From positions 62,001 to 126,000 of the forward strand of contig JAPWGK010000029.1 in assembly GCA_029641185.1 (NCBI GenBank): a stretch of 64,000 nucleotides of DNA, in the 5' to 3' direction. This document shows positions 1 through 55,910 of this stretch, piece by piece (the stretch's first letter is position 1; each line of letters opens with the position of its first letter). Under the pieces are notes generated by a model that was not told the origin of the DNA, made no database searches, and saw nothing but the letters and a program-made list of their open reading frames with translations. The DNA comes from Pseudofabraea citricarpa. Its lineage: Eukaryota; Ascomycota; Leotiomycetes; Helotiales; Dermateaceae. The translations under genes and the position numbers were made by a program.

Positions 1-807
1 AATGTTGTGTTGAAGTAGTACTCGCTATCGAAAAGTTTGCGTATTTCATTCTGCGAAATATAAGCCATATCACCCGAGACTTTTCAACTTTGCAATTTAG
101 CATACCACACAGTGTAAGGTATGGAGCACATCCGGGCTTTTAGTGAAAAGTTAAAATTATTTTTTCAAAATGCCCAGTGGGAAGTTTTTCACTGACCCAA
201 CAAGATAGCCGTCTCTTGGATCCTCAAAAGGACGTCCGGGAAGCTGTTTTGCCTCTTCTTTGGTCATCTGAAATGTTTCATGATCTATCGGATTATTAGC
301 AACTGGTGGGAAAAGAGAAAATATTCTATGTTTTCACCTCCGATGAGCTCTGACCATGCAAGATCAACTTCTGGGGTCGGTTTTCCAACATATCTTGTTT
401 TCTCGTCTCCTGCGTCCATATACATCCGACCTGTGTCTGTATATGCAATTGTTCCTTCGAATGGAACTTTTATGAGCTCAATTACTGGAGTTGAGGGCCC
501 TTATGAAAGGTTAGCGGTTCAATAATATACACATATATTCTATTGAAGACAATCTACCGAATTCTGTTGCAAACCCAGTGCTATATGACCCATATCGTTG
601 CAGAATGGCAAGCCTCAAGGAGAGTCCGATAACGAGCAGTGATAGACATCCAGTGGAGAGTATCCACGGTAGAGGGGTGGCATAAAAACGTCTCGTTGTT
701 GTATCATGGTATGTATCTTCGATTTGTGGAGGGAATTTCTCAGTCTCGATTCCAGACGCTTCTAAATTCTGGTATCTGTGGTTATTCGCTCGAAATATTG
801 AGGTCAT
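1..807 (-). CDS. UstYa-family (DUF3328) oxidase-like protein, 3' end outside window
   Basis: Member of the UstYa/DUF3328 family, whose characterised members oxidatively cyclise fungal RiPP peptides. Seen: exons 807-558, 499-338, 284-197, 136-106 and 50-1 join in phase with GT-AG introns. A short cytosolic N-terminus is followed by one membrane segment (about residues 55-75), the TGFATEFG element, the family motif GKPTPEVDLAW, then GPDVLHTLHCV, giving HxxHC at residues 172-176. An intron falls directly after the HCV codon. The gene runs off the window before the second HC motif, so the C-terminus is not visible. Start chosen at the ATG opening MTSIFR; no upstream in-frame ATG gives a better model. 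It is divergent from the UstYa gene at 1309 across about 500 bases. The HxxHC residue numbers match that neighbour exactly, suggesting a duplicated pair. Function on this cluster's peptide is inferred. Confidence 0.86.
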
Positions 808-1308
808 GATTCCTTTACATTCAATTCTCACGTGAATTGATCTGGTAGAATAACCACGCAGGTAAAGATATATCGAGATGAGTAATTTTAAAATACCTAG
901 ATTCAAATTTTGACAATGAAAAGCATATCACAATGCTCATCATCCAGCGTTCATCTTGTCCTGGGATGATTTGATGGAAGTGCCACGTTAAGCGAGCCAT
1001 GTTTGCTCCTACGCTGCAATTGGTGTGGGGGCCAAGTCTGTATTTTCGCGTCGTCTTACTCTATATCAATTGCCGCTATAGACATTCTCGTCTCGACATT
1101 CCATTCTGTACACTTGACTCAATGAGCGTCGGGAGAGAGATTACAGTTGACTCCACTGTATACCTAGTCTCTAGATAGTGGTGGGCGGCTTTGTTATTCA
1201 TCCCGACCTAACCACTGAGCTATACAACACCAAAAACAATTTATGATTAAAAATTGAAATTCGAATCAAAACAAGTTGGCTTTCTCAAATTTCTCTCACC
1301 AAGACATA
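808..1308. promoter_or_regulatory. Divergent intergenic region between two UstYa-family genes
   Basis: About 500 AT-rich bases between the starts of two divergently transcribed UstYa-type genes, so it must hold both promoters. I see no convincing operator or repeat in it and no coding potential. Confidence 0.5.
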
Positions 1309-2424
1309 ATGGAACCCTCGCGATTATCCGACGATTCTATTCTAGAATACGAGACTTCAAAAAGCTATGAAGGGGAAGAGGGCCTATTGAGTAATGAGCC
1401 CAAACAACGAATTTCAGCAAACAAGTTAAAACAAATCCGAGTTTGGGTCTGCGTGCTTTTGCTTTTTATTCTCCTTGCATCGGTATCTACTTCACTTTCA
1501 AATTCAGACCCGACACTTTTAAGGGCATACGAGACAGGTTTTCCGACCGACTTAGGTATCTTATGTCGAGGTCACAAAATCCAAAAGAATTATAAACTAA
1601 TTGTGTCCTTTCAGAATCGGTACGGTCAGAGGTGGAAACGGTGAAGACTGTTTTTACAGGCGGAGTTGAACTCGATAGCGATGGTACTTATTATCGCGAT
1701 ACCGATAGCAGCGAATCTGAATATGTGGGAGCGCCAAGTCCTGAGATAGATACAGCATGGCAAAAACTATTATACGGTACGATAATTAAAGACTCTACCA
1801 AAAAAAGAATTGATTAGAAAGCTAATAAACAGAAGGGCTGAACTTTGATCTGAGTAGCACAGACGTAACTCATCTCAATGGGACGACATATAAGTGGAAG
1901 GATGATCAGTATTACTTTTCTGGGTTTGTATTGTATTTCAAACTATATGGGGTGTTGACTAATTTGTATGATTTCCAGTCTCGATGTTTTCCATTCATTA
2001 CATTGTCTGGTTGGTTATTATTCCTCTTAGATATGACTTCGGGGAGGTTAACATATATTACTTCATAGAACAGGCTACGACAAGCATTGCGTCCAGATTA
2101 TTACAACTACGTTTTCGAAGATCCAAATGACCCAACTCATGAGATGCACATTGGTGAGTGACGCCCAAATCCAGAATTATTCCTGGAAAACCAAATTAAC
2201 AAATAGAAGATCACTGCATTGACCATTTACGACAGGCACTTCAATGCCATTCTGACTTGACCCCTATGCTATGGAAGAAGAGAGGAAATAGACTTATACT
2301 GAAGAACGGAGGGGTTCACACCTGCAGAAATTTTGATAAGATCCACACCTGGGCTTCTGATCGACAGATTGATTACGAGAAGAAGCAAGAACTAGCAGAC
2401 GGGGAGCTCCATCTTGTAGACTGA
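1309..2424 (+). CDS. UstYa-family (DUF3328) oxidase-like protein
   Basis: Complete UstYa-type gene of 277 residues, six exons: 1309-1555, 1615-1776, 1833-1923, 1979-2009, 2069-2153, 2207-2424; all junctions keep phase. Seen: N-terminal acidic cytosolic tail; one membrane helix near residues 42-62; the family element YVGAPSPEIDTAW; first motif HSLHC (172-176); second motif EDHCIDHLRQ (206-215); and a C-terminal THTCRNFDKIHTW-type motif. Both histidine/cysteine motifs are intact, as expected for an active family member that oxidises aromatic side chains of a RiPP core. The start is the ATG of MEPSRL at 1309; an in-frame TTG upstream is not a plausible start. It is divergent from the partial UstYa gene to the left. 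A role in maturing the repeat peptide encoded at 25955-26414 is inferred from context. Confidence 0.9.
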
Positions 2425-2886: not shown

Positions 2887-3600
2887 TCATTCATTTTTCC
2901 ACGGAAGTGGGATACAAGTCTGAAACATGAGAGGACTATCCGTGATGCCATCCATATAATGCTCCATCGTCGAATTCTCCGAGTGCCTTAGAACATTCGC
3001 AATACGTTTGGCACAATGATTCGTATGATGTAAATCAAACGTCTTGCTATCAATAAACTTCTTCCGCATTTCGACAGCAATATGTAGTTTTCTCCAAGCG
3101 TAAACACAATGCTCATCGTGGAAATACTCTGCATACGCCATTTCCTGATCGCCGGACTCCAATCTCCCAAGGACTTCTGATCCAGCAGGTTGCGTGAGAT
3201 CTCCATCAAGAAACCATTGTCGATCCCGGAAAGGGTTATACTCTTGACTTGGTTCAGGGAAGTAACATGCGTCTGGAATCCATGACCGTTGCATTGGTTC
3301 ATAGTGACAATTCCGAGCTCGAGCTTCATCTGCTGTATGGCCGCAATCTACCCACTGTTCTTTCTGCTCCGCTTCGTGCTTTCTCCCCAGAATTGATACA
3401 CCGGCAAGAGAGAAAATCATTATCGAAAGTATAAAGAAGGTGAACATATAGGTAACGCGACCATTTCGCCACGCTGATCTGTGGTAATTTTGTAGGTCTG
3501 TGTAGTTCCCCTCTTCGCCGAGTAGTTCATCTCGTAGAGTATCATCGTCGTCACTTGTTTTTGTGCGTTGATGCACATCGTTGGACGTTTTGAAAGACAT
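2887..3600 (-). CDS. Small membrane protein with DCG..CHYEPM and two HxxHC motifs
   Basis: Intronless 237-residue protein. Seen: hydrophilic N-terminus with an acidic patch; one membrane helix about residues 50-70; then a fungal family signature: WVDCG, an EARARNCHYEPMQRSWIP element, a CYF element, and PFRDRQWF. Two histidine/cysteine motifs follow: HDEHCVYAWRK and HTNHCAKRI. I recognise this DCG..CxYEPM..W.P..CY arrangement as a widespread fungal family of unknown function often found near secondary-metabolite genes. The paired HxxHC motifs behind a single N-terminal helix resemble the UstYa layout, so a distant relationship and an oxidative role are possible but unproven. It is a paralogue of the gene at 6558-7307; both share LESGD and HDEHC. 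Older annotations sometimes mislabel such proteins as transporters; no multi-helix core is present. Confidence 0.82.
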   Translation of the reverse strand: MSFKTSNDVHQRTKTSDDDDTLRDELLGEEGNYTDLQNYHRSAWRNGRVTYMFTFFILSIMIFSLAGVSILGRKHEAEQKEQWVDCGHTADEARARNCHYEPMQRSWIPDACYFPEPSQEYNPFRDRQWFLDGDLTQPAGSEVLGRLESGDQEMAYAEYFHDEHCVYAWRKLHIAVEMRKKFIDSKTFDLHHTNHCAKRIANVLRHSENSTMEHYMDGITDSPLMFQTCIPLPWKNE

Positions 3601-6557: not shown

Positions 6558-7307
6558 ATGATTGATATTTACAGATTGGAAAGGATGTTTTGGGGCAGCT
6601 TCAAAAATTTTGCCAGTTCTCGAAAAGCGAGCGTTGCCGAGGGGTCCAAGTACGGGAAACTGCCCGAGCAAGAAGGCATCTCGGAACCCGAATGCGATTC
6701 TCAGTTCCAGCTAAATGGCCCGATCTCGGAAAAGCCTTATTGGTATTCTAAACTTTTCTGGTTTATGGCAATCGGCGCCGGTATGCTAGCTATAGCCGAC
6801 TTAGTGGTGCGGACGAGAACCGGTAGTAGCAATGGCTACGCGAAACTCAACTGGACCGACTGTGGAACAAGTCCCGACGAAGCACGACAACGGGGCTGCC
6901 ACTACGAGCCGATGCAGCGAGCTTGGATTCCCAAAGAGTGCTACTTTCACGAGCCTAGTGACGAATACAACGTATTCCGCGATCGAGAATGGTTTATCGA
7001 CACGAACCTGACATATCCGTCGAATGTGGAGCGACTCGAATCAGGCGACGAGCTACGCGCGTACACAAATTATTGGCACGATGAACACTGTACTTATGTT
7101 TTGCGGAAACTCGCGATTGCTGTTGAGAACAAGAGACAGTTGGTGAATAGCCGACTGGCTAATATTGGTCACTCGAATCACTGTGCGAAGAGGATAGCTA
7201 AGAGGATCGTTTATTCGTATAACGCTACTTTGCTAGCGTCGGATGATATGATTACGGAGAGTATTTTGGCATTTGAGAGTTGTGCACAACTTGACTGGAG
7301 GCAATAG
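6558..7307 (+). CDS. Small membrane protein with DCG..CHYEPM and two HxxHC motifs, paralogue of 2887-3600
   Basis: Single-exon ORF of 249 residues. Seen: hydrophilic N-terminus, one membrane helix about residues 75-92 (KLFWFMAIGAGMLAIADLVV), then TDCGTSPDEAR, CHYEPMQRAWIP, ECYF, VFRDREWFID, LESGD, and the motifs HDEHCTYVLRK and HSNHCAKRI. The order and spacing match the gene at 2887-3600, so the two are paralogues. Function unknown; the single helix plus paired HxxHC motifs resembles UstYa oxidases. The start is uncertain: the first ATG at 6558 lies in a context resembling a splice acceptor (ATATTTACAG), and a second in-frame ATG (MFWGSF) at 6585 is at least as likely. An upstream exon cannot be excluded. 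Confidence 0.8.
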   Translation: MIDIYRLERMFWGSFKNFASSRKASVAEGSKYGKLPEQEGISEPECDSQFQLNGPISEKPYWYSKLFWFMAIGAGMLAIADLVVRTRTGSSNGYAKLNWTDCGTSPDEARQRGCHYEPMQRAWIPKECYFHEPSDEYNVFRDREWFIDTNLTYPSNVERLESGDELRAYTNYWHDEHCTYVLRKLAIAVENKRQLVNSRLANIGHSNHCAKRIAKRIVYSYNATLLASDDMITESILAFESCAQLDWRQ

Positions 7308-8370: not shown

Positions 8371-10296
8371 TTAGATCATCCACCGAACTCTACGTTGTGT
8401 AAGCCCATGTATATTAACAGTCAGAATACCAAACATAACGAATATACTCAACAGTCCACAGAAAATTAGTATCGCCATCACCAATTCGCCTAAATGAGGA
8501 TCAAGTTTTGCTTTCAAGGATTCTTGGAGATCATCCAAGTCTGGCAACAAGCTGTACAACACGAGGAAACTAGAATTTCGCTCAGGACATCTCCAACCAT
8601 TGCATTCTTGTACGAGATCATTGCCAGGTATCCATGGCGAAACTAAGGATGAGTTGCGTAAACTTGTGCCATTCCTCGCGATGGCCTCGGCAAATGCCCA
8701 CCCGTAGTACGCTGGTATAGAGAAGTTGGTCTCGAATCCAGATTTGTTTGTTGAACCAGCAAGAACAAATAACGATGGAGAGTTAGGATCGCTGCCAACA
8801 TAGAAGTTCCAGGTCTTGACTTCCGTGGCTCCATTCCAGCTCACATAGAGTGCGATCGAAGACTGGCTGGTGCGGGCATAAGTCCAGAGTGCTGGAGGAT
8901 CTGCCGGATTTCCAATCCAGTCTGACTTGAAAGCTCGATATATACTGCCGCCAGCTATAACCGATGAATGGAACACCAGTGTTCCGTCCGCTTGATACTC
9001 GGTAATATGAGGCTTAGCACCCCATCCCAAAAGGACATTTGTGTTCGGTAGAGTTTGAAATGAACCTTTGCTATCTGTACTCATGTTTTCCTTATCCCCG
9101 TACTCCTTCAACATACTACTTTCTCGTGTTGTATGGTCAAGAACAATGACAATACCTGAAGAATGCTCTACCTTGGCGCTCTCGCCGTCGTCACCATTAT
9201 TGAACAACGTAATTATAGTGTGAGTTTGATTTTGCTGTTTAATCATGAGACACAAGCTTCAAAATTGATTATGGACCAAGGAACACTTACTGACACCCAC
9301 CGGGCATGATGTGCACCCCATATTACGAAATTAGATATTGTGAAGTTAGACTCGGGACCGTTACTCAGTGTCCACATGATCCCGCCATCGACCCCTGACA
9401 CTTTATACAAAGCGCTCGTATGTCTAGCACAGATAAGATAGTCTCCATTTGAGTTCTTGTCTATACTGTTGATGTGAAAGTAATCATAGACAGGTGCTTG
9501 GCCATTCTCAATTTCGACCAGCCGTTCCGCATTGAGAGGTTTGACATGATCAAGTGAATGCCACTCGAAGATCGTCGTTCCGTCTTGTAGATCGATCTCG
9601 ATAAACCCGCTTTCATCAACCTCTCGAAGACCTTGCGGGTTGAGCAATCCTGAGAAGTCGTATGTCTTTATATTGTAGAGTGTCGCTAGTGCACTTCTAC
9701 CAAAGTCCACTGTACGGAATTCATGAATGTCAGAACCACCCTGCGATTGAACGACTTTTACAACTTGATACCGGTCGTTCAAAATCAGCCCATAGCCGTG
9801 CCCACGGCCGAACATCTGAACTCCCTGAAAAAGGCAAAGGTGATCCCCAATGGAACCATCATAATCGCACACGTGAAACCCATACGCATTAGAAGTAAGA
9901 CCATCGGCAGCCCCTGCCCATACCAAAACCTTAGAATTTAGTTAGCCGTGGTTGAATTCTCGATGTGGGAATTTAGGAATTTTTCATACGCCGCGATGGT
10001 CATAGATGTTAGGTCCCGCTTGCCAGAATGGAGATTGTGGATTGGTGAAAATATACTGCGAGCTGGAACTTTCATCGTACACGTGGACATCAAGAACTGC
10101 TGCACGTATGTCTCTTCTCTTGAGGATATGTCAGCTAATCTCTAGATATCGTCGATTGCATATCATTCCCTACCGAGTGAAACATTGTAGTTATAGACGA
10201 AAGAGGATCTGGAAGAAGATTTGAACTTTCCTCGTAAGCTCTAACGCTTGTGGCCAACAAGGCGAGAGCGAGAAACCGGGTTTTCATCATTGACAT
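8371..10296 (-). CDS. Fungal arylsulfotransferase (ASST)-family membrane-anchored protein
   Basis: Four exons (10296-10174, 10118-9990, 9929-9291, 9234-8371) give 584 residues, all junctions in phase. Seen: N-terminal signal sequence (KTRFLALALLATSVRA); FHSRRDIRAAVLDV and QYIFTNP across the first intron; GVLVWAG; the family core YFHINSIDKNSNGDYLICARHTS; then ITLFNNG and FQTLPNTNVLLGWGAKPHITEY; a membrane helix about 35 residues from the end (ELVMAILIFCGLLSIFVMFGIL). These are marks of the fungal branch of the ASST (aryl-sulfate sulfotransferase) beta-propeller family. In bacteria ASST moves sulfate between phenols; whether fungal members do so is not established. A tyrosine-bearing peptide would be a logical acceptor. 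It is followed head-to-tail by a second, unrelated sulfotransferase-type gene (10637-11655). Start among three nearby ATGs is uncertain. Confidence 0.84.
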
Positions 10297-10636
10297 GACT
10301 TCTTGATGTAGGAAATCCAAAGTGATGTGTAGGATGGAGGAAAAATGAGCGCAGAAATCGCTGAGCTTTAATAGAACTACTTGAATCGGTAAAGTGGGGT
10401 AGGTTGATAACGAATTTTACGAACAATATGATATGAAAAACGTCTTCAAGACTCAGAAATAGAAGGCTTTATTATAAGGCAATGTAGGCAATACACCGAG
10501 AAAATTGCATATTAGTACGTTTTCCTTGCGGCTACAGATTTAATAAAATTACATAGTTTTTATCTTAAGAGTACACCCAGGGCACAAAGGTATTAAGCAA
10601 TATTTTTTAAAGAGGCAAATGCAGAGTAATCAAATG
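10297..10636. other. Short intergenic region between the two sulfotransferase-type genes
   Basis: About 340 AT-rich bases upstream of the ASST-type gene, holding its promoter and the terminator of the next gene. Nothing else recognised. Confidence 0.4.
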
Positions 10637-11655
10637 TTACACTAAATACATGATGCACGAGATTACCAGAACTATGACACAGCCCAAAATGAACCATCTG
10701 AATAGTCCATTGGCAATTTGTCTCCGATTGCGTGACTGACAACGTGCGACAAAACTATGGGTGTCATTTACACTAGGGAACGGCTCATATGGCTCAGGTT
10801 CCTCAAGAAAGCTGCACAAGGGACCCCAGCCCTGGCTCACTCTATACTCTAGAAGTCTATCTCGAGGTACCAACTTGCGGATTTTACCATAGTGTTCACC
10901 ATAGATCTCCTTGCCCTTGTTCGGAAAGTCGCCCTCAAAGAATGTATCAAAGAACTTCCTCAACATAGGATAATACATGTTTGCCGCCCAGTCTAAATAT
11001 GATGCTATTCTGAACTCAACATCATGAGCACGCCAGTATACGGTTTTCGTCACCGAAGCATGCCAGGAGTCGATATCTCTCCCTGGAAGGATAACTTTGG
11101 CTTCTGGATATGCAGCAAGAAGTTCCTCGCTAAAGGCAATAGCAGGCCAGTCGGAAACAGCCTTAAATGTTAGTGCAAGTACAAGAACACTCATAGCTTC
11201 AAGAGACACTCACCTGGCAGTGGCCTAGAAGTTGGTCCCATTCACGAAGTCCAAAATTGCCGATTCCATCGTACTTTGCCGCAAATGCCTGCTGCCACAA
11301 AAGACAGTCTAGAGGATTTTCAACGCTGGCGCTCATCATATGATAGGTATCCTGATAACCTGTGTCTTACTTAGAATGTGAAAATCCTCATTTTCTCTAC
11401 AAATAGACCTCACCTAGGCGTTTGAGAGCTTGCCGAATAGCTTATTACGCAATTAGCACCAGCTAGATCACTGACTAGTTCACTTTTTAGAAACTATCTA
11501 GGTAGGTACTTACACGCCGTTCCAGTTCTACCCATACCTAGAACCAAGACTCGCATTGGTACTGTTCTGATCTGCCCCTTTCGATTGATGATGGTCTCAT
11601 TTGGGGTGAAAATATCAGTAATCGGTTTATTTGGAGCAAAGGGATTCAGTGCCAT
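10637..11655 (-). CDS. P-loop sulfotransferase-like protein (Sulfotransfer_4 type) with C-terminal membrane anchor
   Basis: Four exons (11655-11514, 11440-11414, 11359-11214, 11161-10637) give 279 residues. Seen: MRVLVLGMGRTGTASIRQAL at about residues 34-53, the P-loop-like PAPS-binding element of this family, split by an intron; LGYQDTYHM; AVSDWPAIAF; AAYPEAKVILPGRDIDSWHAS, the conserved RD..W element; and a C-terminal helix (FILGCVIVLVISCIMYLV). This is the fungal/bacterial Sulfotransfer_4 family, often annotated vaguely as P-loop or NAD-dependent epimerase proteins. It probably uses PAPS, but the substrate is unknown. It lies next to and in the same direction as the ASST-type gene. Exon 2 is only 27 bases. 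A role in sulfating the cluster product is inference. Confidence 0.84.
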
Positions 11656-14553: not shown

Positions 14554-16970
14554 TTATTCATTATACTGAATATCGAGCGCACTGTATCTATGTCTTAATA
14601 AGGTAGCCAAGCGCAATGTGTGATTGCGGACCATAACTATAACTATGACGATTACCAGCACGCAATAGACTGTATATTCGCTTGAGATCTCGATCAGGTT
14701 CCCTGATTTCCCACGAAAGCCTGCAACGTTAACCTTTACTGGATTTATTTGGCATGGCTCGATCGGATTAGGACTGCATATACCATGGCCGTAATCCATG
14801 AGCCAGTAGTCTTTTACTGTTCCTAGGCCATTGAGGTACGCGTTTAGCTGTCGCTCTGAGCAGAATGAAAGAGCAAGCGTGTAGCACATGCCTTCTTCTT
14901 CGTGTGCATCCTCTGGAAGCTGATTTTGGATGTGCATTGTTGAATTCGGACCGGTAGTAGCGTAAGTCGGAATGCCACTCACGTCAATCTTACCGGACGC
15001 AATATCTTTGCCTTTGATTGCCCTATTAAAAATAGTGAACCCGACAGAAGGCCATTCCGTGCTGATAGTATGACTGGAATTGAGCACCCGGACAAAGGCA
15101 AGGTTGCCATATTGTCGAACGTAGGCTTCTGGGGTTTTATCAGACCTCTCCTGTCCTTTAGGGAACTGAACTGGTTGGTAGCCAGCATTCTGGAATGAAT
15201 GCACATGTTTATGTTGAAGCGACAGAGATAAAGCCTCTCCACCAAGCCCTGGAAGCAGAGCACATTAGGGACGTGTGACAACCAGCAAGAGGTGAGAGGA
15301 ACTTACAGTTACATGCATAGTCGCGATCACCATACATGAGGGTAATTCTCACGCCATCATCTAACGCTCGTATGAGAGAAGCCTGATAGTCGCCTCTGAT
15401 ATTATCACCGGTCCCGGTAAATGCGGTAGCAATATTCATCGCATTGTCCGTAAAGTTGACGAAGACACCAAGATCTGCCTGCACATCGGCCTGCTTCAAG
15501 TAAGCCAGATGTGTTTGCAGAGTAGGTTCTGTAAGAAAACGGGAGGTATGTCCAATGTCAAAGGCGTCTCTGCCTTTGGAGGATATAAGATTAACCATAT
15601 GCTTCCCGCAGAAGGTGTTTGCTTTATGGCAGAGAGCATTGATAGAGCTATTGCTTCCAATGTTTGACAACCTAGCAGAGGCCCTGCGGCAAGATTGAAT
15701 GCGCTCCTTGCAGCCATCTATCGAGTCCCAGAACATACGAGCTGAGACATAGGTACTTTGGTTAATCAGTGGCAAGCCGTACGTATTGTTGAAGGCCATT
15801 TCTGGATACGCAGGTAGCTGAGCAAGAGCATCAATGCATCCGTTTGTGAAGCCCATCGATACAAAGTGGATGCTTGGAGCTCCATCCAGAGCGCACTTGC
15901 CTGCCTCCAGGGCTTTATTCTGAGACATTGTGAAATCATATAGTGCAGTTGCATAGTGTCCGCCATATGACGCCGCCCACAAACCGATATTATGATCGTC
16001 AAACTGAGATTCAGGAAAGTCCTCAAGCCAGATGGACAGTGACAGCCAGAGTGCTCTTACTGCGGCTTCTGTACCATTAAATATAGTATCTTTGTCGGCT
16101 AATCCTGTACCGAATCTACCCAATTTAACCAAGCGGCTGTCACTGATATCAATCTCGGGTTCGTTTTTCTGTAAAGACACCTGACCACGAAAATTGACTG
16201 TGGCCATAGTTGGTACATCGTAGCTGAACCCTTCGTTGAAATCAGCACCTTTACTACCTTCCGAAGCATGAGCCATACCTGTATTTACGGGCTGGTCTAT
16301 GAATAGGATATTTGAATCTAGATTCCAAGACCATGGATTTGATCGTGTGGTCCTACCATCAACATTAATCCTACATGGGCCAATCCCCCGTAGAAGTGAC
16401 ATAACTGTTGGCTATATTGTCAAATTAACTATTTCAATAAAAGAACAATACTTAGAAAGGTGCATACTGCTTGATGACTATCACATCAAATTGTTAGCTT
16501 ATTCTACATCATAAGAAATAACATGACTAACACCCGGTCCACCTTCCACTATTTCAACGTCAGCTATCTAGCCATTTGCTATAGCAGTAGACACATACAA
16601 TATACAGTCAACGGCGCATTTTCCGGGTTCGTCTGACTCTCAAAACACCAAAAGAAGGTATTGATTGGAAGGTGTTGGTCTAAGCCAACATAGCGCAAAG
16701 AATCAACTGGAAGATGTACATAGCCTGAAAAGCTTCTTGCGTTCTTCCCTGATCTGCAAATCTGTACTCCCTTATATTGAACCTGTCCTCCTGGAAGAAC
16801 AGTCGAATTCAACTTGATGGTATCTTGCGGTCTATCTTAGCCTCATTAGCAATTGTGTAAGTCACGTGTGTCATAGTAAATGTCCTTACGTACCTAGGTG
16901 GAGACTGGGCAACCGTTCTGGCCAAGAGTATGGTGGCAGTGACCACGGCAATGATGCGAAGTATCGGCAT
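14554..16970 (-). CDS. Secreted S10 serine carboxypeptidase-like protein with altered substrate-binding residues
   Basis: Five exons (16970-16894, 16831-16599, 16548-16532, 16411-15307, 15248-14554) give 708 residues. Seen: signal peptide [26 protein letters not shown] and [19 protein letters not shown]; a 17-base microexon encoding [22 protein letters not shown] and [11 protein letters not shown]; the nucleophile motif [10 protein letters not shown] (Ser about 257); [11 protein letters not shown] (Asp about 471); SSHTISTEW (His about 537); a membrane helix near the C-terminus ([14 protein letters not shown]). The Ser-Asp-His triad is complete. Two positions that bind the substrate C-terminal carboxylate in carboxypeptidase Y differ: Asn of NGGPG is Glu, and Glu before the Ser is Ala. 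Kex1-like trimming after kexin cleavage of the precursor is one possible job; a changed specificity or ligase-type reaction is another. Both are inference. Confidence 0.88.
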
Positions 16971-17845: not shown

Positions 17846-18736
17846 ATGTTTTTCGCAGTTCAAAAGTATCAGCGGGTACCTCGAGAAGAGGGCGACAAGT
17901 TTCCCTCTACGAAACATAGATCTAAAATGCTCTTCCAGGCGTCCTTTTTCCGCTTCGCTCTAGCTTTCATCTTGGGTTCTTGCTTTGGTCTGGCAGTCAT
18001 GTCGTTACTTTTGACAAAAGGCTTATCACAAAAACCAACTGCTCCTTCTGTGATTCCCGCTCAGGTCTTCAGTCCCAAGATTCCAACGATTTGGGTGCCT
18101 GACGACCAGTATATTGGCTGGTCAAATCATACTAACATTATGTGGCATCGTCTTATTCAACGTAAGTCTTTCGAAACTGACTTCAATTAAGACATAAATC
18201 TCTAATAAGTTCATGATGTAGCCACAGATACTGTGTGGATTTCAAATCCATCAGATCACGGGCTAGGAGATGGGTTTGAAGCAGTATTCGATCATCACTC
18301 GAAAGAGAAACTCACACCTCAATTTTATCATATTTCAAACCTTCACCAATTGCACTGTCTAGTAAGATTAAACAACTCACTTATGATGTAACTTAGGGCA
18401 ATTAGAGTTGACAAATATGCTCAGAACATCATTCGGGGACGCTATTTTGAACTGCGATACGATACTCCATCACTGTCCAAAGTCTCGAAGTTGGCGGCGG
18501 ATGATACTGCATATCACATAGATCATTGCATCGAATATCTACGTATGACAATTATGTGTGGGCAATCCTGGGACGTCGAGTCTAACAGTCCCGCGGGGAC
18601 ACCTCATGAGTTGAAGATAAATCCATTTGGCCATCCAATATGGTGGGGTGGTGTTCGGAACTGCGTGAACTGGGAGGCATTGGTAACATGGCAGAAAAAG
18701 CAGTTGGATGCTTACAAAGAAACTTGGAGTAGTTGA
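17846..18736 (+). CDS. UstYa-family (DUF3328) oxidase-like protein
   Basis: Three exons (17846-18161, 18222-18361, 18425-18736) give 255 residues. Seen: N-terminus MFFAVQKYQRV; one membrane helix about residues 30-55 (FFRFALAFILGSCFGLAVMSLL); the proline-rich stretch before IWVPDDQYIGWSNHTNIMWHRL; first motif HQLHC (147-151), with an intron directly after the following Leu codon; NIIRGRYF; second motif HIDHCIEYLR (183-192); and the C-terminal element CVNWEALVTW. It is closest in layout to the gene at 29888-30779: both have a D..YIG.SN.TN..W element and CxN[WF]EAL near the end, so these two form a subgroup. Both motifs are intact. Predicted to take part in oxidative maturation of the RiPP precursor; the exact reaction is unknown. 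Confidence 0.9.
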
Positions 18737-19040: not shown

Positions 19041-19903
19041 CTATCCAGCGAGTTCACTTGCCCACTGATGAACCTGCCAGTAATCTTTGCAAACATGCAA
19101 CTGCCCATCCGCAAATGTTTCGGCGTCAAGGGCCCACATGAGAGTGGTATCTAGATTGCACATTAGAGTTTGCCTTATCATGTCGAGGCAATGAAGGACA
19201 TGACCCCAGGGATCTGACTGCTCTTTTCCCTCGTGGTAGTGCCAAAGAGCCGTGCGAACGACAGTCTATCAGTGAGGAGCTTAGCATACTGTATGGAGGG
19301 ACTATGCAATTCAAGACATACCACACAATGCATAGCATGGAAACCAGCTATGATGTATACCCCATTGTTTTCATTTAATGGATCAATAGCTGTTGCATGA
19401 AGGCCATTGGCTTGCGCTTCAGAGATGTTTAGAGACACAACACCGTTTCCATCTATTGAGCTGTCAGAGGCGACTACGCACATGCAGCTGGATTGTATGG
19501 AACTTGCCTGGAAATAGATCTTTCCAAAGATAATCTGCTCTTTGCTTTCTTTCACCATCCCCGTTGAACTCAGTTTCCTGATAGATAGGTTGTAATATGG
19601 TGCGAGTAGGTGGGTCTGTAATGTCAACAATGCTCGCATGATTCCGTCCAGTTTCAACGTACAATTCTCCCCCACTTGCGATTGAAATGGTGATGGTCTT
19701 TGTACAAGCAGTCGAATTTGGTTATATTGCCAAGCCCACACACAGTTTGTGGCAATAGTAACACAAGCAAGTATATACAGCATCCATTTCAGCCCCTGTT
19801 CTGGAGTTGACTTCTTGGGCAGCATTTCAGCTTCAGGTGCTGAACTATAAGAATCTGGATCCTCCAAAGCAATAGGTTGATAAATTATCTCACTTCCATT
19901 CAT
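19041..19903 (-). CDS. UstYa-family (DUF3328) oxidase-like protein with a GC-AG intron
   Basis: Four exons (19903-19663, 19615-19508, 19452-19322, 19265-19041) give 234 residues. Seen: cytosolic tail MNGSEIIYQPIAL; one membrane helix about residues 39-60; ADYLWKDLFP; GVVSLNISEAQANG; first motif HAMHC (155-159) with an intron directly after the next Val codon; TVVRTALWHYH; second motif HVLHCLDMIRQTLMC (182-196); a tail with ALDAETFADGQLHVCKDYWQVHQW. Intron 2 appears to use a GC donor (GCAAGT) instead of GT; this is the only choice found that joins the DUF3328 frames, with a CTGAC branch site and TAG acceptor. It is the shortest complete UstYa gene here and lacks a clear copy of the PSPEVD.AW element. 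Function in core-peptide oxidation is inferred. Confidence 0.85.
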
Positions 19904-21210: not shown

Positions 21211-22406
21211 ATGGATTCCAACTCTCCTATTGACCCACCGGAGTACTCCGGCAAGTCCAGCTTTAGCAGCAATGACAAATTCGAAGAAGAATCTCTGCTT
21301 CAGAATATTGGTGATACTAAAGGCTATGGAACACGGTCCAAGCCACGCTGGCTGCCGTCTACAAAACATTGGCTCGCCGTCAACATTATTCTTACCGGCC
21401 TAAACTTGGTTGTTCTGATCACTTTAGCAATCACATTACGTGCAGGACGTTCCACAGACAAATCAACGGTGTCTCTTCTTCCACCATGTTAGTCTACCAG
21501 ATAGTTAGTTATGTCACGATGAGAGTCTATTGCTAATTTATCTGAGAAATAGCACCAGCAACCGTTGTAGTTGAAAAGGAACTACGTCCCTTTACCTTGG
21601 TATCACCCTACTCAGAGCCACCAAATCCGGTCACTGACCGATTGTGGCATGACCTCGTCGATAGTAAGTTATAGAAAATGTGTAGAAACTTTTTGATATT
21701 AACGGATTGTGCGATAGCTGGAGCTTTGTTTCCGATTACTCCAGAGACATTTGCCCAGGTCAACGACAATCCTGCGACGGGCGTGAAGCTTACACACGAC
21801 CCAGAAGGACGCTACGTCGCAAGTCTTGCCTCGACTCACCATATTCATTGTGTTGTAAGTGCGATGTAATTTAGATAGTAAGAGTTTTGAACTAACAATA
21901 TCAAGGATACTCTCCGCAAGGGTCTTTGGTTCAACTGGGAATACTATAGAGACATTGGTGATGACCTCTTCATTGTTAATGATCCACCAGAGGAACATCT
22001 TAGTACGTTGCACCACTTCCATCAAACTTATCTATAAGGCTCTGACGGAACTCCAGTGCATTGTGTTGAGATGCTGCGCAATGCAGTGATGTGTGCTGGT
22101 GATGTATCTCTTATTACTTTTAACTGGAATAAGGGCCATGAAATCCCGAAGTCTAACTTCAAAGGCATGCATGCGTGCCAGAAATGGGACAAGATTAGAG
22201 ACTGGAGAGTTGCGCACAACGTAACTGCTCAGCTCAAAACTTTGGAGAGACCGGTGGGGTTGCTGGAAGAAGAACCAGAGGATTCAGAAGGTTTCTCCCC
22301 CGGCGGTTACGAGGGTGGTACTAAGACCCTCCCTGATGGAACGGTTGAGTACCATTTGGGCCCACATGGCGAATATGGACACTACCCCAAACGACAACAT
22401 GAGTAG
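21211..22406 (+). CDS. UstYa-family (DUF3328) oxidase-like protein with extended C-terminus
   Basis: Five exons (21211-21487, 21553-21663, 21718-21854, 21906-22002, 22057-22406) give 323 residues. Seen: cytosolic tail; one membrane helix about residues 52-75 (LAVNIILTGLNLVVLITLAITL); VTDRLWHDLV; GRYVASLASTHHIHCV, giving HHIHC at 170-174, with an intron directly after the Val codon; DTLRKGLWFNWEYYRD; second motif HLMHCVEMLRNAVMC (206-220), restored by choosing the CTCCAG acceptor at 22056; ACQKWDKIRDW. After this about 70 extra residues follow, rich in Gly, Pro and Glu. It is most similar in layout to 23372-24573: both have 32 residues between the HCV intron and the second motif. It lacks a clean PSPEVDxAW element. 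It converges on that paralogue. Confidence 0.89.
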
Positions 22407-23371: not shown

Positions 23372-24573
23372 TCAAGGCGGCGACGAAAGCGCCTTGGCAC
23401 CAGGAGGCTTCAACGGCATCATGGGGGCACCTTCCGGCAACTGATGATCAACAGTCCATTGCCAGATTCCCTCAAAGTTGCGGCAAGTCTGCTTGGTGTT
23501 GAAATCTGGCCAAGGCCGCGCTCGTTGCTCAATCCAGTGCGCCGTCACCAGCCCAACATCAGCATGGCACATCACAAACTGTCTGAGCATTTCAACGCAA
23601 TGGTCTGGAATTAGGATTAGTCTTTTTTACAACTAGAGTCAAATATAACAATGGGAATTATGGGATTGCTACCTAAGTGAACTTTAAATGTCTCTTCTTT
23701 GTCCTTGAAGTCGGGGTCGTGCTTGAGATAGTACTCATACTTGAAATGTGATGCCTTACGAAGTAAATTCTGATTTCAAATTAGTTTACTACAGACACAT
23801 AGAGGTCTCGTGCCATGGACTTACCACGCAATGTAACTATATCGTAAGAAATCATGGTTAACGAGACTCTTAGGACGTAGTATAGTTGATTTTACCTGAT
23901 GTGAGAATTCAACCTGAAGAAAATAGCCTCCTCCATACTCTGCTCCATTTGTGGCGGCCGTTTCGGGATCATTTCCAATCTTGCGGTATTGCTCTTCTGT
24001 CACCGAAAGATCTAGTGGTCGGACTAACTGATGTTAGCAAAGCATCCATATAGTATTATTTCCTAATTACACATAGATATCTTGTCCCAGGCTTGGTCTA
24101 CCTGTGGACTTGGATCACCTCTATACGGCGATGGCCATCGGATAGATCCGTTACGTCTCGTTTCAATGATAGCATTAGGAACTTGATCTAGTAATGGAGC
24201 TTGTAGAGAAGTATATTAACATTATTGATTTCGTACACTTTGGAATGAACTTACAGTATGAAGATGTTTCCAAAAAACATCCCTTCTTCAATCTACTTTC
24301 ATCCAGCCAGACCAACATAGTCATAGCAACAACTAGAATAATAGATAATGCCCATCCACTATACATGATATAGCCCCCATGGGAATTTTTCGCACGCCGG
24401 GCAGGAAGTCGACTATCAGGGTATCCAAGCAGTTCGGATTTGGATGTTCTTTGGTCTTCGTCATCATCAAAATTATGATGCACAGGTTCATACCGCTTGA
24501 TAGGGCGGAAAAGGTGCGATCCAATAGACAAAAGTCCCACCGAGGAGAAGAAGCGTTTGGTTCGAGGATACAT
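23372..24573 (-). CDS. UstYa-family (DUF3328) oxidase-like protein with a 12-base microexon
   Basis: Six exons (24573-24255, 24187-24071, 24023-23896, 23836-23825, 23769-23673, 23604-23372) give 301 residues. Seen: basic N-terminus; one membrane helix about residues 68-88; YRGDPSPQVDQAWDKI, the family element; EYGGGYFLQVEFSHQ; then exon 4, only 12 bases, encoding LHCV, which completes HQLHC at 187-191; NLLRKASHFKYEYY; second motif HLDHCVEMLRQFVMC (223-237); and TCRNFEGIWQW. Without the microexon the signature would be lost, which supports it strongly. The boundary of intron 2 is less certain. It is the paralogue most like 21211-22406 and is the UstYa gene closest to the precursor-peptide gene, transcribed in the same direction. 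Predicted to oxidise the peptide's aromatic side chains. Confidence 0.88.
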
Positions 24574-25954
24574 GGTTCCCGTAAGGTCTACCAGAAGAAG
24601 TATATAGTTTTGAACCGAGAGAAAAAAGAAACAAGAGGATTTGAGCCACTAAGAGGCAGAGTAAAAGTGAAGAACACAGAGGAGGAGGAGGAACTTCAAC
24701 CTCAGATTCGTAAACGATAATCAAGCCAGAGAAATTGGAACCACTTTGAGATTAAGATAACTTGAAATTAGAGCTATTCATGCTGCCTAGAACGGCAATT
24801 TTGTTCATGTTACATCTTTTGGAATAAATGAGCGCACCAACCAGAAGGTCCCGGAGATAACACTCTTCATGCGGGGCACATGGAATATCCAATAGAGCTT
24901 TGATCATGACGAAGTTCTCACTCACAGGCAAAGAAGTGATCGTTATCAGTGCCATACCAAGGTTGCAACATGGATGATTCGGAATTTGTTTCCTCGCTTG
25001 GTGTTGTCCTTGATTTGTGAATGGCGTGTGTTCCGGGGTAAAATTCGCCAATTGACGTTTGTAGGGGGGTAACTCGGCTTAAGGACGCATATTTAGGTAC
25101 GCACGTAGTGTGACTGTAATAAATGGTCTCCAAGTTTCGCTCAAGATGCGGGGAACTAAGAAAATAAGCTTAGCAAGCTTTGCCATCCCGTGGCGGATGG
25201 GTCCTTAGGGCTGCAACGTAACCCTCCTGGTTAATAAGCATTTTTCTTGGCTACCTATACAGTTTCTTTGTGGGGTCTTTCATGCATAATCGGATTCCCA
25301 ATAGTAGATCTGCGTTACACGGCACAACTTAAAGCCGAGTTGATACTTCCTCGCTTGTAAGCACAACGCCATGGGGGCAGCAATTGTTAATTTGTGCTTA
25401 TTCCTATAAACGCTAAATTAGATCCATGATTTTTTAATCGTGAAATTATGAGAGAGTCCGGCATAACAGGCCAATTGGAGGTGCAGCATTCAAGTACATC
25501 TTATCCCGTACGGGGTTGTTTCCATATCTATCGATTACATGAGTCCGTTCTAAAAAAAACCTTGGCGTCATATTTACAAGCGAGGGGATATGTCTCGCTC
25601 TCTCTTTATCGATGCTGACTTGCAAAAGTCTTCAAGAGTTTATACGACCCAGGAATGCATGTACGCAACAAATTTGTTCATGTTACGGGTGTAAACATTC
25701 TCCACTAAACTTGATGATAAAAATATCATTAATTGACAATGTTAAGGACCGTTCCTCCGATAACCCACGCTAAATGTGGCAAACAGAAAGCGCTTAACGA
25801 GTGGGCTAGGTAATGACCAACGAAGAGAAGAAAGAAATTCCCAAATTATTCTGATCTCCTCCATCTCCAGAGAACTCCGCCAACTGCGGATCTACAACCT
25901 GCTCACTCTGACTTTCCGTCTCATCGCTGTAGTCATATGGATTTCAAATCTCGT
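24574..25954. other. Intergenic region downstream of the precursor gene
   Basis: About 1.4 kb between the start of a UstYa gene and the stop codon of the precursor gene. Its right end (25920-25954) holds most of a decayed precursor repeat; beyond that an open minus-strand frame runs to about 25813. The rest has only short chance ORFs, including one at 24752-25051 with no recognised features. Confidence 0.45.
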
Positions 25955-25967
25955 TTACAAAGACACC
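25920..25967 (-). repeat. Decayed fourth copy of the precursor repeat
   Basis: Read in the frame two bases off the precursor frame, these 16 codons line up with the repeat unit. Position by position they match Gly, Phe, Glu-Ile, Asn, Tyr, Tyr and Asp-Glu of the intact units, but the Trp codon TGG is TGA, Ser before Tyr is Pro, and Gly between the Tyr residues is Asp. A frame change upstream puts the normal stop codon (25957-25955) inside it. No KKKR follows. This is a degenerate repeat, or an exon tail reached by splicing I cannot resolve. Confidence 0.6.
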
Positions 25968-26414
25968 ACAGAGGTCTTGGCATGCTCGCTAGTCACAGCC
26001 TCTCGCTTCTTCTTCTCGTCATAGCCGTAACTGTTCCAGATACTCTCAAGAGAGGTGAAGAGGCCAGCATCAACCTCTTCTGTCTCTGCGACGGCTACGG
26101 CCTCTCGCTTCTTTTTTTCATCGTAGCCGTAGCTATTCCAGATGCTCTCAAGGGAAGTAAAGAGGCCAGCGTCAACCTCTTCTGTCTCTGGGATGGCTAC
26201 AGCATCTCGTTTCTTCTTCTCGTCATACCCATAACTATTCCAGATGCTTTCGAGAGAGGTGAAAAGACCGGCGTCTACTTCTTCTGTCTCCTGGTTGGGC
26301 ACTAATACTTTGTCAGTCATATGAATCCACCACATATTCAACAAGGACCATACCTGGGGCGGCAAAGACACCTCCTAAGATGGCAGCGTACCAGATTGTC
26401 TTGGTGAAATGCAT
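25955..26414 (-). CDS. Secreted repeat precursor peptide of a dikaritin-type RiPP
   Basis: Two exons (26414-26354, 26301-25955) encode 135 residues. Seen: signal peptide MHFTKTIWYAAILGGVFAAP; a 52-base intron with CTGAC branch site; then three units that each read ETEEVDAGLFTSLES, then IWNSYGYDE, then KKKR, linked by a short DAVAIP/EAVAVA spacer. Each unit thus ends in a kexin (Kex2) site directly after an aromatic-rich segment. This is the layout of dikaritin precursors such as those of ustiloxin and asperipin, where the core peptide lies just before or near the basic site. The likely core lies within WNSYGYDE, offering one Trp and two Tyr for oxidative cross-linking; exact ends are not determined. 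The only precursor-like gene in the window, it sits amid seven UstYa-family genes. Divergent from the MFS gene at 27547. Confidence 0.93.
26003..26290 (-). repeat. Three tandem 34-codon repeat units in the precursor
   Basis: Units at 26290-26189, 26188-26087 and 26086-26003 (the last lacks the spacer). The 28 residues from ETEEVD to KKKR are identical in all three, yet the DNA differs at many third positions (for example SYGYD uses AGT TAT GGG TAT GAC, AGC TAC GGC TAC GAT and AGT TAC GGC TAT GAC). So the protein sequence is conserved while the DNA drifts. Confidence 0.93.
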
Positions 26415-27546: not shown

Positions 27547-29481
27547 ATGGCCACAGATACAACGGAAACTCCATCGTCATGGAGAACATTGCCACGCAAA
27601 GATCAGCTCGCTATTTTGACTTTATGTCGTATTGTTGACTTTTTCCAGATGACTTCTTTCCAGACAATTTGCTATTACCAATTGAAGTCTTTTAACAAAG
27701 TTGCATTGGAACAAAACTTGTCGTGGCAGACTGGCGTAGCCTTAGCAAGCTTTACTGCCAGTCAGTCGTGTACCGCGATCCTTTGGGGTTATATCGCAGA
27801 TACAAAGTGGTGCGGTAGAAAAAATGCATTGCTTATCGGCCTTGTGGGGACCAGCTTGTCTTGTGTTGGCGTAGCCTTTTCCCAGTCTTTTGCTTGGGTA
27901 GTTGTGTTCCGTGTCCTAGGAGGCACTTTGAATGGTACGGTTGGCGTGGTGTAAGTACGGCCGCTCAAAGAACTTTTGTCCCAAAGTTGACATTGAGCAG
28001 GCGAACAATGATATCTGAAGTTATAGGTCACAAAAAGTAAGCATTTTTTGATTATTGGAGTTCCCGAGCATTCAGATCGTGTGATAGTACAGCTAAACTC
28101 TTATTTAGACATCAAGCGCGTGCATTTATGCTTTTGCCGGCAAGTTTCAGCATTGCAGCCATCATTGGACCAGGTTGGTGACCTGTGGAGTGTGATAGCC
28201 CATCTTACTGATCTTCGTCGTAGTCTCCGCTGGATGGTTGTCTGATCCCACGGTCACTTATACTAAAGTTTTCACCGGAGTCGAGTGGTTGAGAAAGTAT
28301 GCCTTCAGTCTACCATTACTGTTGAGTGCATTGCTTCTAGCACTAATATCACTCATTGTGCTCTTCAAGCTTGACGAGGTAAGTCTCTTGATCTAACCAG
28401 ATCAAATTGTGTGACTCTAAACAGATTTAGACATTGGAAGGATATAATTCAGACGCGTTTGTCAAGCGCACAGTACGACAGATTTTACGAATCTACCCCT
28501 ATTCTTGTGAAACACCTCCAAATGGTGATTATTCTCTCCTGGTTGAAGAAGGCAACTCTACACCCTCTATACCAAAACCAGCCCCAATTTGCTATAATGA
28601 TGTATCAAATGAGCCAAGCTTGAAGTCAAGACTGTCTTTTCGCAGAATATGGACTTCTAATGTCGTCTTAACCATGGTATCATTGGCATTCTTCGAGTTC
28701 CACCTGGGGTGAGCTTCCCCCAACCCCTACATTTAATTAGTCGCTTTTCATAACAATTGATGTCTAGGGCATTTGGTAGTATCTGGCCTCTCCTACTTTC
28801 AAGCCCCAGAACAGATAATTCAAGCAATGGCGGCTTTCGTGGTCTGAGCGGAGGCCTTGGCATGTCGCCTCAGAGCCTTGGGTATACGACAGCTTTCGCT
28901 GGAGGTGCAGGTCTTGTTCTTCAAATTCTTCTTTATCCCTCCATTCATCGAAAGATTGGCACTTTGAAGTGCTTTCAAATATTCTTACTCCTTTTTCCTG
29001 TTGTATACGCCTTGTCGCCTTTTTTAGTCACCATATCAGGACCTTCGCCTGCATCGAGAGAAGCTGCCATTTGGGTCTGCATTATTATTCTGCTTTTTGC
29101 TCACAGCTCAAGTCGAATCTTCTGTATACCCGCTTCAATCACACTTTTGAATAATTGTTCACCGCATCCTTCTGTTCTCGGGATTGTGCACGGAATCGGC
29201 CAGTCCACATCCGCAGCGTTTCGGACGATTGGGCCTGCTTGTGCTGGATATTGTAAGTATATTATTTTAATAATACCTTTACCATTACAAGCATGCTAAT
29301 GGCTCTTGTCGTCTCAGTGTATGGAATAGGTTACGCAAATGGATCAATTGGCATTAGTTGGTGGGCAGTCGCAGCATCTGCACTAGCAGGCTGGCTTGCT
29401 TCACTGGTGATTCGCGAGGGGTCTGGTCATGAGATTATCTTGCCCGGCGAAGAAGATGACAACGAGAAAACAATTCCATGA
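27547..29481 (+). CDS. MFS transporter (DHA1/ZIF-like)
   Basis: Seven exons (27547-27950, 28001-28036, 28109-28173, 28224-28378, 28431-28708, 28768-29252, 29318-29481) give 528 residues. Seen: LPRKDQLAILTLCRIVDFFQMTSFQTICYYQL opening helix 1; GYIADTKWCGRKNALLIG, the DxxGR-type loop 2-3 motif; FRVLGGTLNG in helix 4; IGPVSAGWLSDP in helix 5; a central loop of about 90 residues; LGYTTAFAGGAGLVLQI and a second set of helices; an acidic tail. It resembles the fungal DHA1 transporters often called zinc-induced-facilitator-like or ZRT-type MFS, several of which export secondary metabolites. It is the direct divergent neighbour of the precursor gene, making it the best candidate exporter of the peptide product; this is inference. 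Confidence 0.9.
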
Positions 29482-29887: not shown

Positions 29888-30779
29888 TTAGACCTGCCAG
29901 GTTGAATTGTAAACTCTCTCTTGTTCAATTTGAAAGACACGTAGTGCTTCAAAATTTATGCAATCATGCTCAATTCCCCACCCAGTAACAGTAGAGGCTT
30001 CGCCATGCCCCCCTTCGACGATAAGGGGCGAGTGTCCCTCAATTGAAAAGCCTGAGCCACAAGAGATAGCCTGCCTAAGGTATTCGAAGCAGTGATCAAC
30101 ATGTGCATCCCAGGCCGCTTCTGAGTACTCGGTTATGACTGGATTGTCTCCTTTCACTTGCCAATAGTGGAAGCGCACAAGATTCTGTAAGGGCTTCAGC
30201 ATATTATAAAGAGTGTTGCTTCCAGCTTTATCGAGATACGAAATCTAAAAATCTAAACGAAATGCTTACCAGACAGTGCAACTCATGCAGTAACGAGACA
30301 ACATAGAATTTCCTTGGGACGGGAGATGCCATGTTCTCATGATGAAAAGGAGGGCCAGTTCCTTCTATCAGCCCGTACATATCTGGATCTTCTAGATACA
30401 GAGCATCGTGACCTTGTTGAATAAGTGAAATGGTCAAGGTTACAATTTTGGTTGAAAACATACCTGCAACAAGACGGTCCCAGTTATGGTTCGTCTGGTT
30501 GGACGGACCAATGTAAGTTTCATCGGGCTCGAATACTCTTTTCACTCGATCAAAGACCTCTGGCGGAAAGGGATGGGTAGAGGCGAGGCCAGGATAATTG
30601 ACAAATCTAGGGCGACGATAAAAGTCTATTGCTAAGAACCAGCCACTGGCAAGTAGCAGTAAAAAGATATTGTAGAGAACCCTTCGAAGACCACTGCGTC
30701 GCTTAGGAACATAAACATCGTCCAAATCTCTATCGACGCTGTCTGAGAGACGGCTTTGCAGTGATGTGTATGGTGACAT
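29888..30779 (-). CDS. UstYa-family (DUF3328) oxidase-like protein
   Basis: Three exons (30779-30464, 30412-30270, 30184-29888) give 251 residues. Seen: N-terminus MSPYTSLQSRL; one membrane helix about residues 34-52 (VLYNIFLLLLASGWFLAI); PDETYIGPSNQTNHNWDRLVAG; FYVVSLLHELHCL, giving HELHC at 148-152 with an intron directly after the Leu codon; LVRFHYWQ; second motif HVDHCFEYLRQAISC (181-195); and CINFEALRVF near the end. It pairs with 17846-18736 as a subgroup (same YIG.SN.TN..W and CxN[WF]EAL elements). Both catalytic-type motifs are intact. Predicted to take part in oxidising the RiPP core. Confidence 0.91.
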
Positions 30780-53100: not shown

Positions 53101-53183
53101 CGTGATGAGGATGACGAAGATGGTGACATGTCTAAGATTGTTCTATTACGGGTTGCCTGTTGCCACAATGAGTCTAATCAGTC
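47152..53183. other. Six-kilobase gene-poor region
   Basis: No credible gene. Open stretches at 49669-49971, 50221-50535, 51686-52132 and 52642-53021 have no recognised domains, no consistent splicing partners and overlap other open frames. The left two thirds are AT-rich; GC rises from about 52.2 kb. No transposase, reverse transcriptase or long terminal repeat was recognised, but a degraded element cannot be excluded. Confidence 0.5.
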
Positions 53184-54870: not shown

Positions 54871-55155
54871 TTTCCCGCACATCCAAGCACATAAGCACAC
54901 ACCGGCCGGCGAGCACACAAGGACTGTGGTACAGATAATAGAGTACAATTAAGCAGAAGTCATGTTCCCCAATTGCCATGTCTCGTGTCGGAAGGCATTT
55001 GAGAGCGATGCTGACCAATTGGAGATCGCGTGATGGTCATGAGCGGTGAGCTTTCTGCTGTCACGTGTACAGTCCTCGAGTATTATCTCCTCGTCCCCCA
55101 TCCATCGACCAGCCTCACTCATTCTCTCATTCACTCATTCACCCGTATCGACCGG

Positions 55156-55651: not shown

Positions 55652-55910
55652 GTCCATATGTATACACGCCGTTTCTGGACGAGTCCCATGTTTGTTTCGC
55701 TCATATTCCTTTGTCTACATTTTGTTCGTTTCTCCAGTCATTGTCTGTGGATTCATATCAATGACTTCCTGATTCTTCTCCTTCGTCTTGTGCATTTCAT
55801 CTTATAACTCTCATAATAAGTATCTGAGCCCTCTTATGTTATCCTATTCTTCCACATCCGATATCCAGACGAAATAATTTCGCTCCAGTTTATCACTTCT
55901 AGCACCTGTC

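Follow-up and report, generated by a model that had tools for sequence, protein, structure and literature searches.

By 2022 the number of reported dikaritins stood at only five (PMC10512285), and two definitions of the class are given in section 23 of PMC12048977. The original one comprises five genes including a tyrosinase and a methyltransferase, and the later one treats UstYa as class-defining, with a UstYa/DUF3328 protein carrying two HxxHC motifs encoded near a precursor. According to PMC12435403, the UstYa-family protein CctR is membrane-associated and dependent on copper and oxygen, with the paired HxxHC motifs forming its metal site, and AprY is a cyclase with the same two dependencies. 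Asperipin-2a is made from AprA, a precursor in which the aromatic hexapeptide FYYTGY recurs every 8 residues between kexin sites, by way of a single UstYa gene (AprY), and tyrosinase is absent from the four genes listed for it in PMC6514808. Ustiloxin B and phomopsin are described as products of multicore precursors (UstA and PhomA) with a signal peptide, kexin sites and Tyr-x-Ile cores in 13-14-residue repeats (16 and 8 copies, respectively); their clusters contain more than one UstYa gene and need a tyrosinase (UstQ, PhomQ). For ustiloxin, Kex2 cleavage is speculated to precede cyclization (PMC6514808). The epichloecyclin precursor GigA, to which our comparison is by description, has a signal peptide and four kexin-separated repeats and gives a Tyr-based oxidative ring (PMC6514808). 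A survey of 1461 strains counted 7878 Kex2-processed repeat proteins of 838 types, 1758 of them (22%) with UstYa nearby (PMC7329392), so this kind of precursor is well populated. In that survey, repeats near UstYa genes were enriched in Tyr (65.6% versus 38.2%) and not in Trp (20.5% versus 24.5%), and Tyr- and Asp-rich types with UstYa occur, such as G-6, which spans 19 genera including Monosporascus and Hypoxylon (PMC7329392).

The locus described here lies in a window of 64,000 nucleotides from Pseudofabraea citricarpa (contig C22:62001-126000), where a 135-residue protein carries the core WNSYGYDE three times. Its near-identical 34-residue units, each with a dibasic KKKR kexin site, fit the definition of Kex2-processed repeat proteins in PMC7329392. 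It resembles asperipin-2a in its kexin repeats, its association with UstYa, an aromatic hexapeptide with G-Y at positions 5-6 and the lack of a tyrosinase, but differs in its core sequence (WNSYGY instead of FYYTGY), its repeat length of 34 rather than 8 residues, its several UstYa genes and the DE that precedes the basic site. With ustiloxin B and phomopsin it shares multiple cores, kexin sites and more than one UstYa gene, and its putative signal peptide would be a further likeness, whereas the Tyr-x-Ile core is absent and three 34-residue units take the place of the many short repeats. None of the 28 genomic matches to tyrosinase (PF00264) falls on contig C22, so the tyrosinase of the original five-gene definition is missing there; the UstYa protein of the later definition is represented by the window's UstYa genes and by a UstYa relative near the Monosporascus homolog of the precursor. 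A sequence-only reading had called the precursor new-looking and its core unlike known dikaritin cores. The core indeed matches neither FYYTGY (PMC6514808) nor the YAIG, YVIG and YVIP cores named in PMC7329392. Novelty stands in part: the repeat is not mentioned in openly licensed PMC main texts (supplements excluded), where matches to the motif string are, by title, about collagen, but relatives are already public and the precursor kind is populous (PMC7329392). No GigA-named protein appears among the matches of our two precursor searches. We judge the gene, by its neighboring genes, to be a probable dikaritin-type precursor of an apparently undescribed sequence family, set beside the 838 survey types by description only.

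Layout, coding evidence and relatives of the precursor gene

The gene reads from an ATG at 26414 to a stop at 25955, the ends given by the sequence-only reading, and lies on the minus strand, which that reading had left unstated. The protein has the layout MHFTKTIWYAAILGGVFAAP-VPNQ followed by three copies of ETEEVDAGLFTSLESIWNSYGYDE-KKKR-linker. Tandem Repeats Finder places an array of 2.9 copies with period 102 at 25995-26290 and scores it at 417; the two remaining arrays in the window score 51 and 54. The units had been proposed to be identical, each ending in a kexin site after a Trp/Tyr-rich segment, and this is what we find, the identity spanning 28 residues and thus reaching beyond the core; the six-residue linkers that follow KKKR are DAVAIP, EAVAVA and EAVTSE in units 1 to 3. 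The 52-nt intron was chosen on the basis of splice signals and relatives; an alternative acceptor 6 nt upstream, ending at 26308, would give 137 residues, and further GT-AG pairs exist. The N-terminal segment is hydrophobic by inspection, ends in AAP and forms a putative secretion signal, with AAP or AVP at the corresponding position in relatives P0001, P0002 and P0004. Exon 2 has nine weak Pfam matches, all under cut-off (best E 0.0002), and the same genome holds no paralog, its five matches being the gene's own two exons and three places at E 1.24, 2.16 and 5.75.

Table 1 Features of the window (positions count from its first nucleotide).
Feature	Position	Strand	Remarks
Precursor exon 1	26354..26414	-	ATG and signal-peptide-like MHFTKTIWYAAILGGVFAAP; layout resembles P0001, P0002, P0004
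Probable precursor intron	26302..26353	-	52 nt, GT...AG, CTGAC branch-like motif; splice signals and relatives
Precursor exon 2	25955..26301	-	Three repeat units and stop (25955-25957)
Unit 1, conserved block	26207..26290	-	28 aa; core WNSYGYDE 26219-26242; KKKR 26207-26218
Unit 2, conserved block	26105..26188	-	28 aa; core 26117-26140; KKKR 26105-26116
Unit 3, conserved block	26003..26086	-	28 aa; core 26015-26038; KKKR 26003-26014
U0, UstYa-family	1..906	-	Crosses left edge; Pfam match C22:61750-61920 outside window; HTLHC at 123; start approximate
U1, UstYa-family	1309..2400	+	Both ends approximate, by inspection
UX1, single-exon	2887..3600	-	Paired HxxHC; possible distant UstYa relative
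UX2, single-exon	6558..7307	+	Paired HxxHC; possible distant UstYa relative
S10 serine carboxypeptidase	14554..16402	-	PF00450, 104 bits; C-terminal piece 18.5 bits, under cut-off
U2, UstYa-family	17846..18733	+	Motifs HQLHC, HIDHC
U3, UstYa-family	19044..19903	-	Motifs HAMHC, HVLHC
U4, UstYa-family	21211..22406	+	Start by inspection
U5, UstYa-family	23372..24573	-	Nearest to precursor; ends set by ORF list and relatives
Major facilitator transporter	27547..29299	+	Between precursor and U6; first ORF PF07690, 36.8 bits, cut-off 33.4
U6, UstYa-family	29888..30779	-	Motifs HELHC, HVDHC

Codon differences among the three unit pairs are 46 synonymous versus 10 non-synonymous, and in 5000 shuffles per pair the number of amino-acid changes was never that low. 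The 28-residue block accounts for 42 synonymous and no amino-acid-changing differences, whereas the linkers hold 4 and 10, respectively, which argues that the sense frame is translated and that selection on it is strong. For one unit pair the synonymous distance is 2.28, and for the other two it is uncomputable, which we take as saturation; we infer that the copies are old and have been held identical by selection, not duplicated recently. A plus-strand reading (25937-26305, 122 residues) was set aside, its few changes being ascribed to third positions that coincide with those of the sense frame. That the repeat might be a chance or decayed frame without translation is very improbable. One antisense frame is also open with few amino-acid changes (42 synonymous versus 12 non-synonymous), and the codon statistic alone leaves it possible because third codon positions are shared with the sense frame. 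However, the 42:0 ratio in the block speaks against a chance frame, and the sense frame is favored because four database relatives match it.

These relatives came from two protein searches; the sequence-only reading had proposed to look for the repeat in known precursors and in genomes. The protein search found P0001 from Monosporascus sp. CRB-8-3 (DL769_009260, 88 residues, two units) and P0002, deposited as Lasiodiplodia mahajangana (O1611_g5822, 87 residues, two units). A profile of three sequences added P0003 from JGI (65 residues, two units, start apparently missing) and P0004 from Metarhizium acridum (MAC_09652, 72 residues, one unit). The searches scored the 7986 and 7985 candidates with the most shared words, among proteins of similar length, and the family spread is a lower bound. 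All four carry public names of the hypothetical or uncharacterized kind and have no Pfam domain; we do not rely on the "RxLR effector" label that one source gives to P0004. Ten units, three of which are the window's own identical ones, agree throughout in 16 of 23 columns (.E.VDAGLFT.L...W.SYGYDE). VDAGLFT, the Trp and SYGYDE are kept in every relative, and the residue after the Trp (N, A or Q) is the single core position that varies among the relatives seen. Internal copies precede KKKR, KKKLKR or KKKAKR, and all four proteins terminate exactly at YDE with no basic tail, which suggests that YDE is the likely C terminus of the released peptide after basic trimming.

UstYa-family genes and other neighbors

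Pfam confirms the seven UstYa genes counted by the sequence-only reading (U0-U6). In this 44-Mb genome of 43 contigs, 9 of 46 matches to UstYa (PF11807) lie within 35.3 kb (C22:56894-92184), representing the seven genes that touch the window and one further left; the 46 are exon-level places and a lower bound for UstYa in the genome. A six-frame scan of the window for HxxHC gave 21 places, 13 of them in U0-U4, U6, UX1 and UX2 and 8 elsewhere. Both motifs stand in one frame in U2, U3 and U6, and in the others they are split or partly outside the window; introns apparently interrupt both motifs in U5 and a single motif in each of U1 and U4.

A protein search with exon pieces of U5 and U6 and the repeat units returned 107 matches at E <= 1e-5. 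Every one of the 107 matches the U5/U6 pieces and carries a UstYa domain, and no precursor relative of about 190-604 residues appeared at this threshold. Proteins from M. acridum and Trichoderma virens are 78-79% identical to U6 over the pieces used. One match, P0011 (DL769_009263), comes from the same Monosporascus strain as the precursor relative DL769_009260 and is most similar to U5 (59% over the pieces used). The two genes are three locus tags apart, and the contigs of both are 38,021 bases long. This pair is the strongest evidence, at the level of sequence, linking the precursor to a UstYa enzyme, and it adds to the earlier claim of a kexin-type repeat precursor beside UstYa genes, which our analysis bears out. 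The three named species with a precursor are all among the 107 UstYa matches (M. acridum with P0005 and P0024, Monosporascus with P0011, O1611 with P0016), and a shared contig is seen in one of the three, Monosporascus. The O1611 match P0016 (43% to U5) lies on another, short contig, apart from the precursor, and the M. acridum tags of the precursor and of the UstYa relatives come from different assemblies. That UstYa genes are common, and that two repeat precursors occur at one locus, counts against the pairing.

Relatives of U5 and U6 also lie close together in Xylaria flabelliformis (FHL15_011258 and FHL15_011256; P0013/P0015) and Penicillium lagena (N7510_005383 and N7510_005379; P0021/P0025). 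Their locus tags are 2 and 4 apart, respectively, so the U5-U6 pair is probably a conserved module. Small genes are often left unannotated, and this is perhaps why three protein searches matched no precursor from either species.

Besides U0-U6, two window proteins, UX1 and UX2, carry paired HxxHC motifs, and two more of this type lie left of the window at C22:59625-60287 (minus strand) and 60541-61473 (plus strand). All four have a membrane-anchor-like stretch and share the pattern CG...AR..C...W....CY. None matches Pfam over cut-off; UstYa appears for one of the four at E 0.077, a value equaled by the unrelated NPP1 (0.077). A profile comparison with UstYa aligned both motifs in register (41.5% probability, E 2.7e-4), and UX1-UX4 are possibly an undescribed branch of the UstYa copper oxidases. 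A fold model from UX2 alone was discarded (mean pLDDT 42.8). For the U6 relative P0007, a model built from a 20-row alignment (pLDDT 73.4) puts the two HxxHC motifs on two helices, a placement that agrees with the description of CctR in PMC12435403. The best of its 15 matches to solved structures has E 2.3, and PDB sequences gave no match to the profile at E 0.01.

Among the other neighbors, the transporter at 27547 and the S10 carboxypeptidase represent the transporter or peptidase expected of a dikaritin cluster. The second ORF of the transporter (28757-29299) has no family match. The carboxypeptidase could be a candidate trimmer of the KKKR tails. A Zn2Cys6 transcription factor is encoded at C22:54305-56528. 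None of the four S41 peptidase matches in the genome is on contig C22, and for two methyltransferase families, with 50 of 86 and 28 of 110 candidates scored, the sole match on the contig is at C22:188523, about 100 kb off. An arylsulfotransferase (PF14269, two ORFs) and a sulfotransferase (PF17784) occupy 8371-11209, among the UstYa genes; that these enzymes sulfate the Tyr of YDE, given its acidic surroundings, is conceivable as speculation. In 4-kb steps, G+C is 0.41-0.45 over positions 1-52000 and 0.48-0.53 over 52001-64000, which places the peptide locus in an A+T-richer stretch.

Two side loci deserve description. A second repeat precursor, QGIQGLHNYVTLKVKG..., is encoded on the minus strand at C22:58370-58798, 3.2 kb left of the window. 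It has a signal-like N terminus and three units (QGIQGLHNYVTLKVKGSDADE...) every 34 residues with KR sites, its synonymous to non-synonymous codon differences are 15:2, 16:10 and 12:9 among the three pairs, and it has no evident sequence in common with the WNSYGYDE precursor. When 94 kb were scanned for frames with repeats, three came up: these two genes and a 228-residue frame in which just two six-residue words recur and a single dibasic site occurs. Elsewhere in the genome, C42:1015556-1077118 contains many UstYa matches, accompanied by a tyrosinase at 1074557 and, at 1060570, a match to S41 peptidase, and looks like a canonical dikaritin cluster.

The putative product and alternative readings

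We consider it about 80% probable that the gene encodes the precursor of a UstYa-modified ribosomal peptide of the dikaritin type, and very probably a modified peptide that is so far undescribed derives from it. In the pathway that we propose, the precursor would enter the secretory route, and in each unit the conserved stretch (T)EEVDAGLFTxL would serve as a recognition sequence. One or more of the neighboring UstYa copper oxidases, with U5 as the first candidate and U6 as the next, would oxidize the aromatic C-terminal segment W[N/A/Q]SYGYDE, in all likelihood by linking the side chain of a Tyr to a second residue. Kexin would cut after KKKR and a carboxypeptidase would strip the basic tail to leave ...YDE; the N-terminal part of the peptide would be either removed or retained. 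Export of the product may fall to the transporter at 27547.

Judging from asperipin-2a, the bond is most likely an ether linked to Tyr; one linked to Trp is possible, as the Trp is constant in the units seen. The Trp-Tyr or bicyclic ether product suggested by the sequence-only reading is thus far a conjecture. That the UstYa chemistry involves no Trp at all, consisting of ethers to a Tyr beta-carbon as in asperipin-2a or of desaturation, hydroxylation or halogenation, is a plausible alternative to which we give somewhat less than even odds. One UstYa enzyme forms the Tyr side chain-beta-carbon ethers in FYYTGY (PMC6514808), the phomopsin UstYa enzymes also desaturate (PMC10512285), the asperipin-2a core and WNSYGY share an aromatic first residue as well as G-Y at positions 5-6, and it is Tyr but not Trp that is enriched in repeats near UstYa (PMC7329392). 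A Tyr-only reaction would not require the Trp, which is invariant in 10 of 10 units, yet 15 other columns are invariant too; since the upstream VDAGLFT is equally invariant in the relatives, conservation does not single out the Trp. We regard as unlikely the more elaborate outcome that the unit stays intact over its 22-24 residues while UstYa closes WxSYGYDE into a Trp-Tyr or Trp-Tyr-Tyr ring. If true, the product would be a "tailed" macrocycle, long where known dikaritins are short, with three, two or one core per precursor, and the one-core Metarhizium form would escape repeat-based mining. None of the papers matched in a search of openly licensed PMC main texts for a Tyr-Trp bond with UstY proteins contains "Tyr-Trp".

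The yeast alpha-factor is released by a kexin cut and the removal of X-Ala/X-Pro pairs by a dipeptidyl aminopeptidase. The same route, with kexin cutting after KKKR and the aminopeptidase then taking off such pairs, could yield the entire 22-24-residue peptide (about ETEEVDAGLFTSLESIWNSYGYDE), secreted and signal-like, either linear or lightly modified. The whole 24-mer is a serious rival as the product, because conservation covers the entire block, across species and between repeats, and not just its aromatic end; both linkers that precede a further unit also consist of X-Ala/X-Pro pairs (DA-VA-IP and EA-VA-VA). This pattern is not kept in the linkers of the relatives, however, and the UstYa relative near the Monosporascus precursor points away from an unmodified peptide, so that we hold such a release to be improbable. 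The local UstYa genes might instead serve the second precursor (QGIQGLHNYVTLKVKG...), which belongs to the same UstYa-rich region and has a UstYa gene on one side and two paired-HxxHC proteins on the other, leaving WNSYGYDE to other enzymes or unmodified. We think this quite improbable, as the second precursor is about 29 kb from the WNSYGYDE gene and U5, the UstYa gene nearest to the latter, has its relative three tags from the Monosporascus precursor.

The preferred reading, a UstYa-modified dikaritin-type peptide, pairs the precursor in a precise and testable way with the enzymes U5 and U6, members of an oxidase family with a range of reactions that is still being mapped, and its core offers a Trp next to two Tyr as a candidate UstYa substrate. 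The one-, two- and three-unit forms of the precursor suggest that part of the family escapes when genomes are mined for repeats alone.
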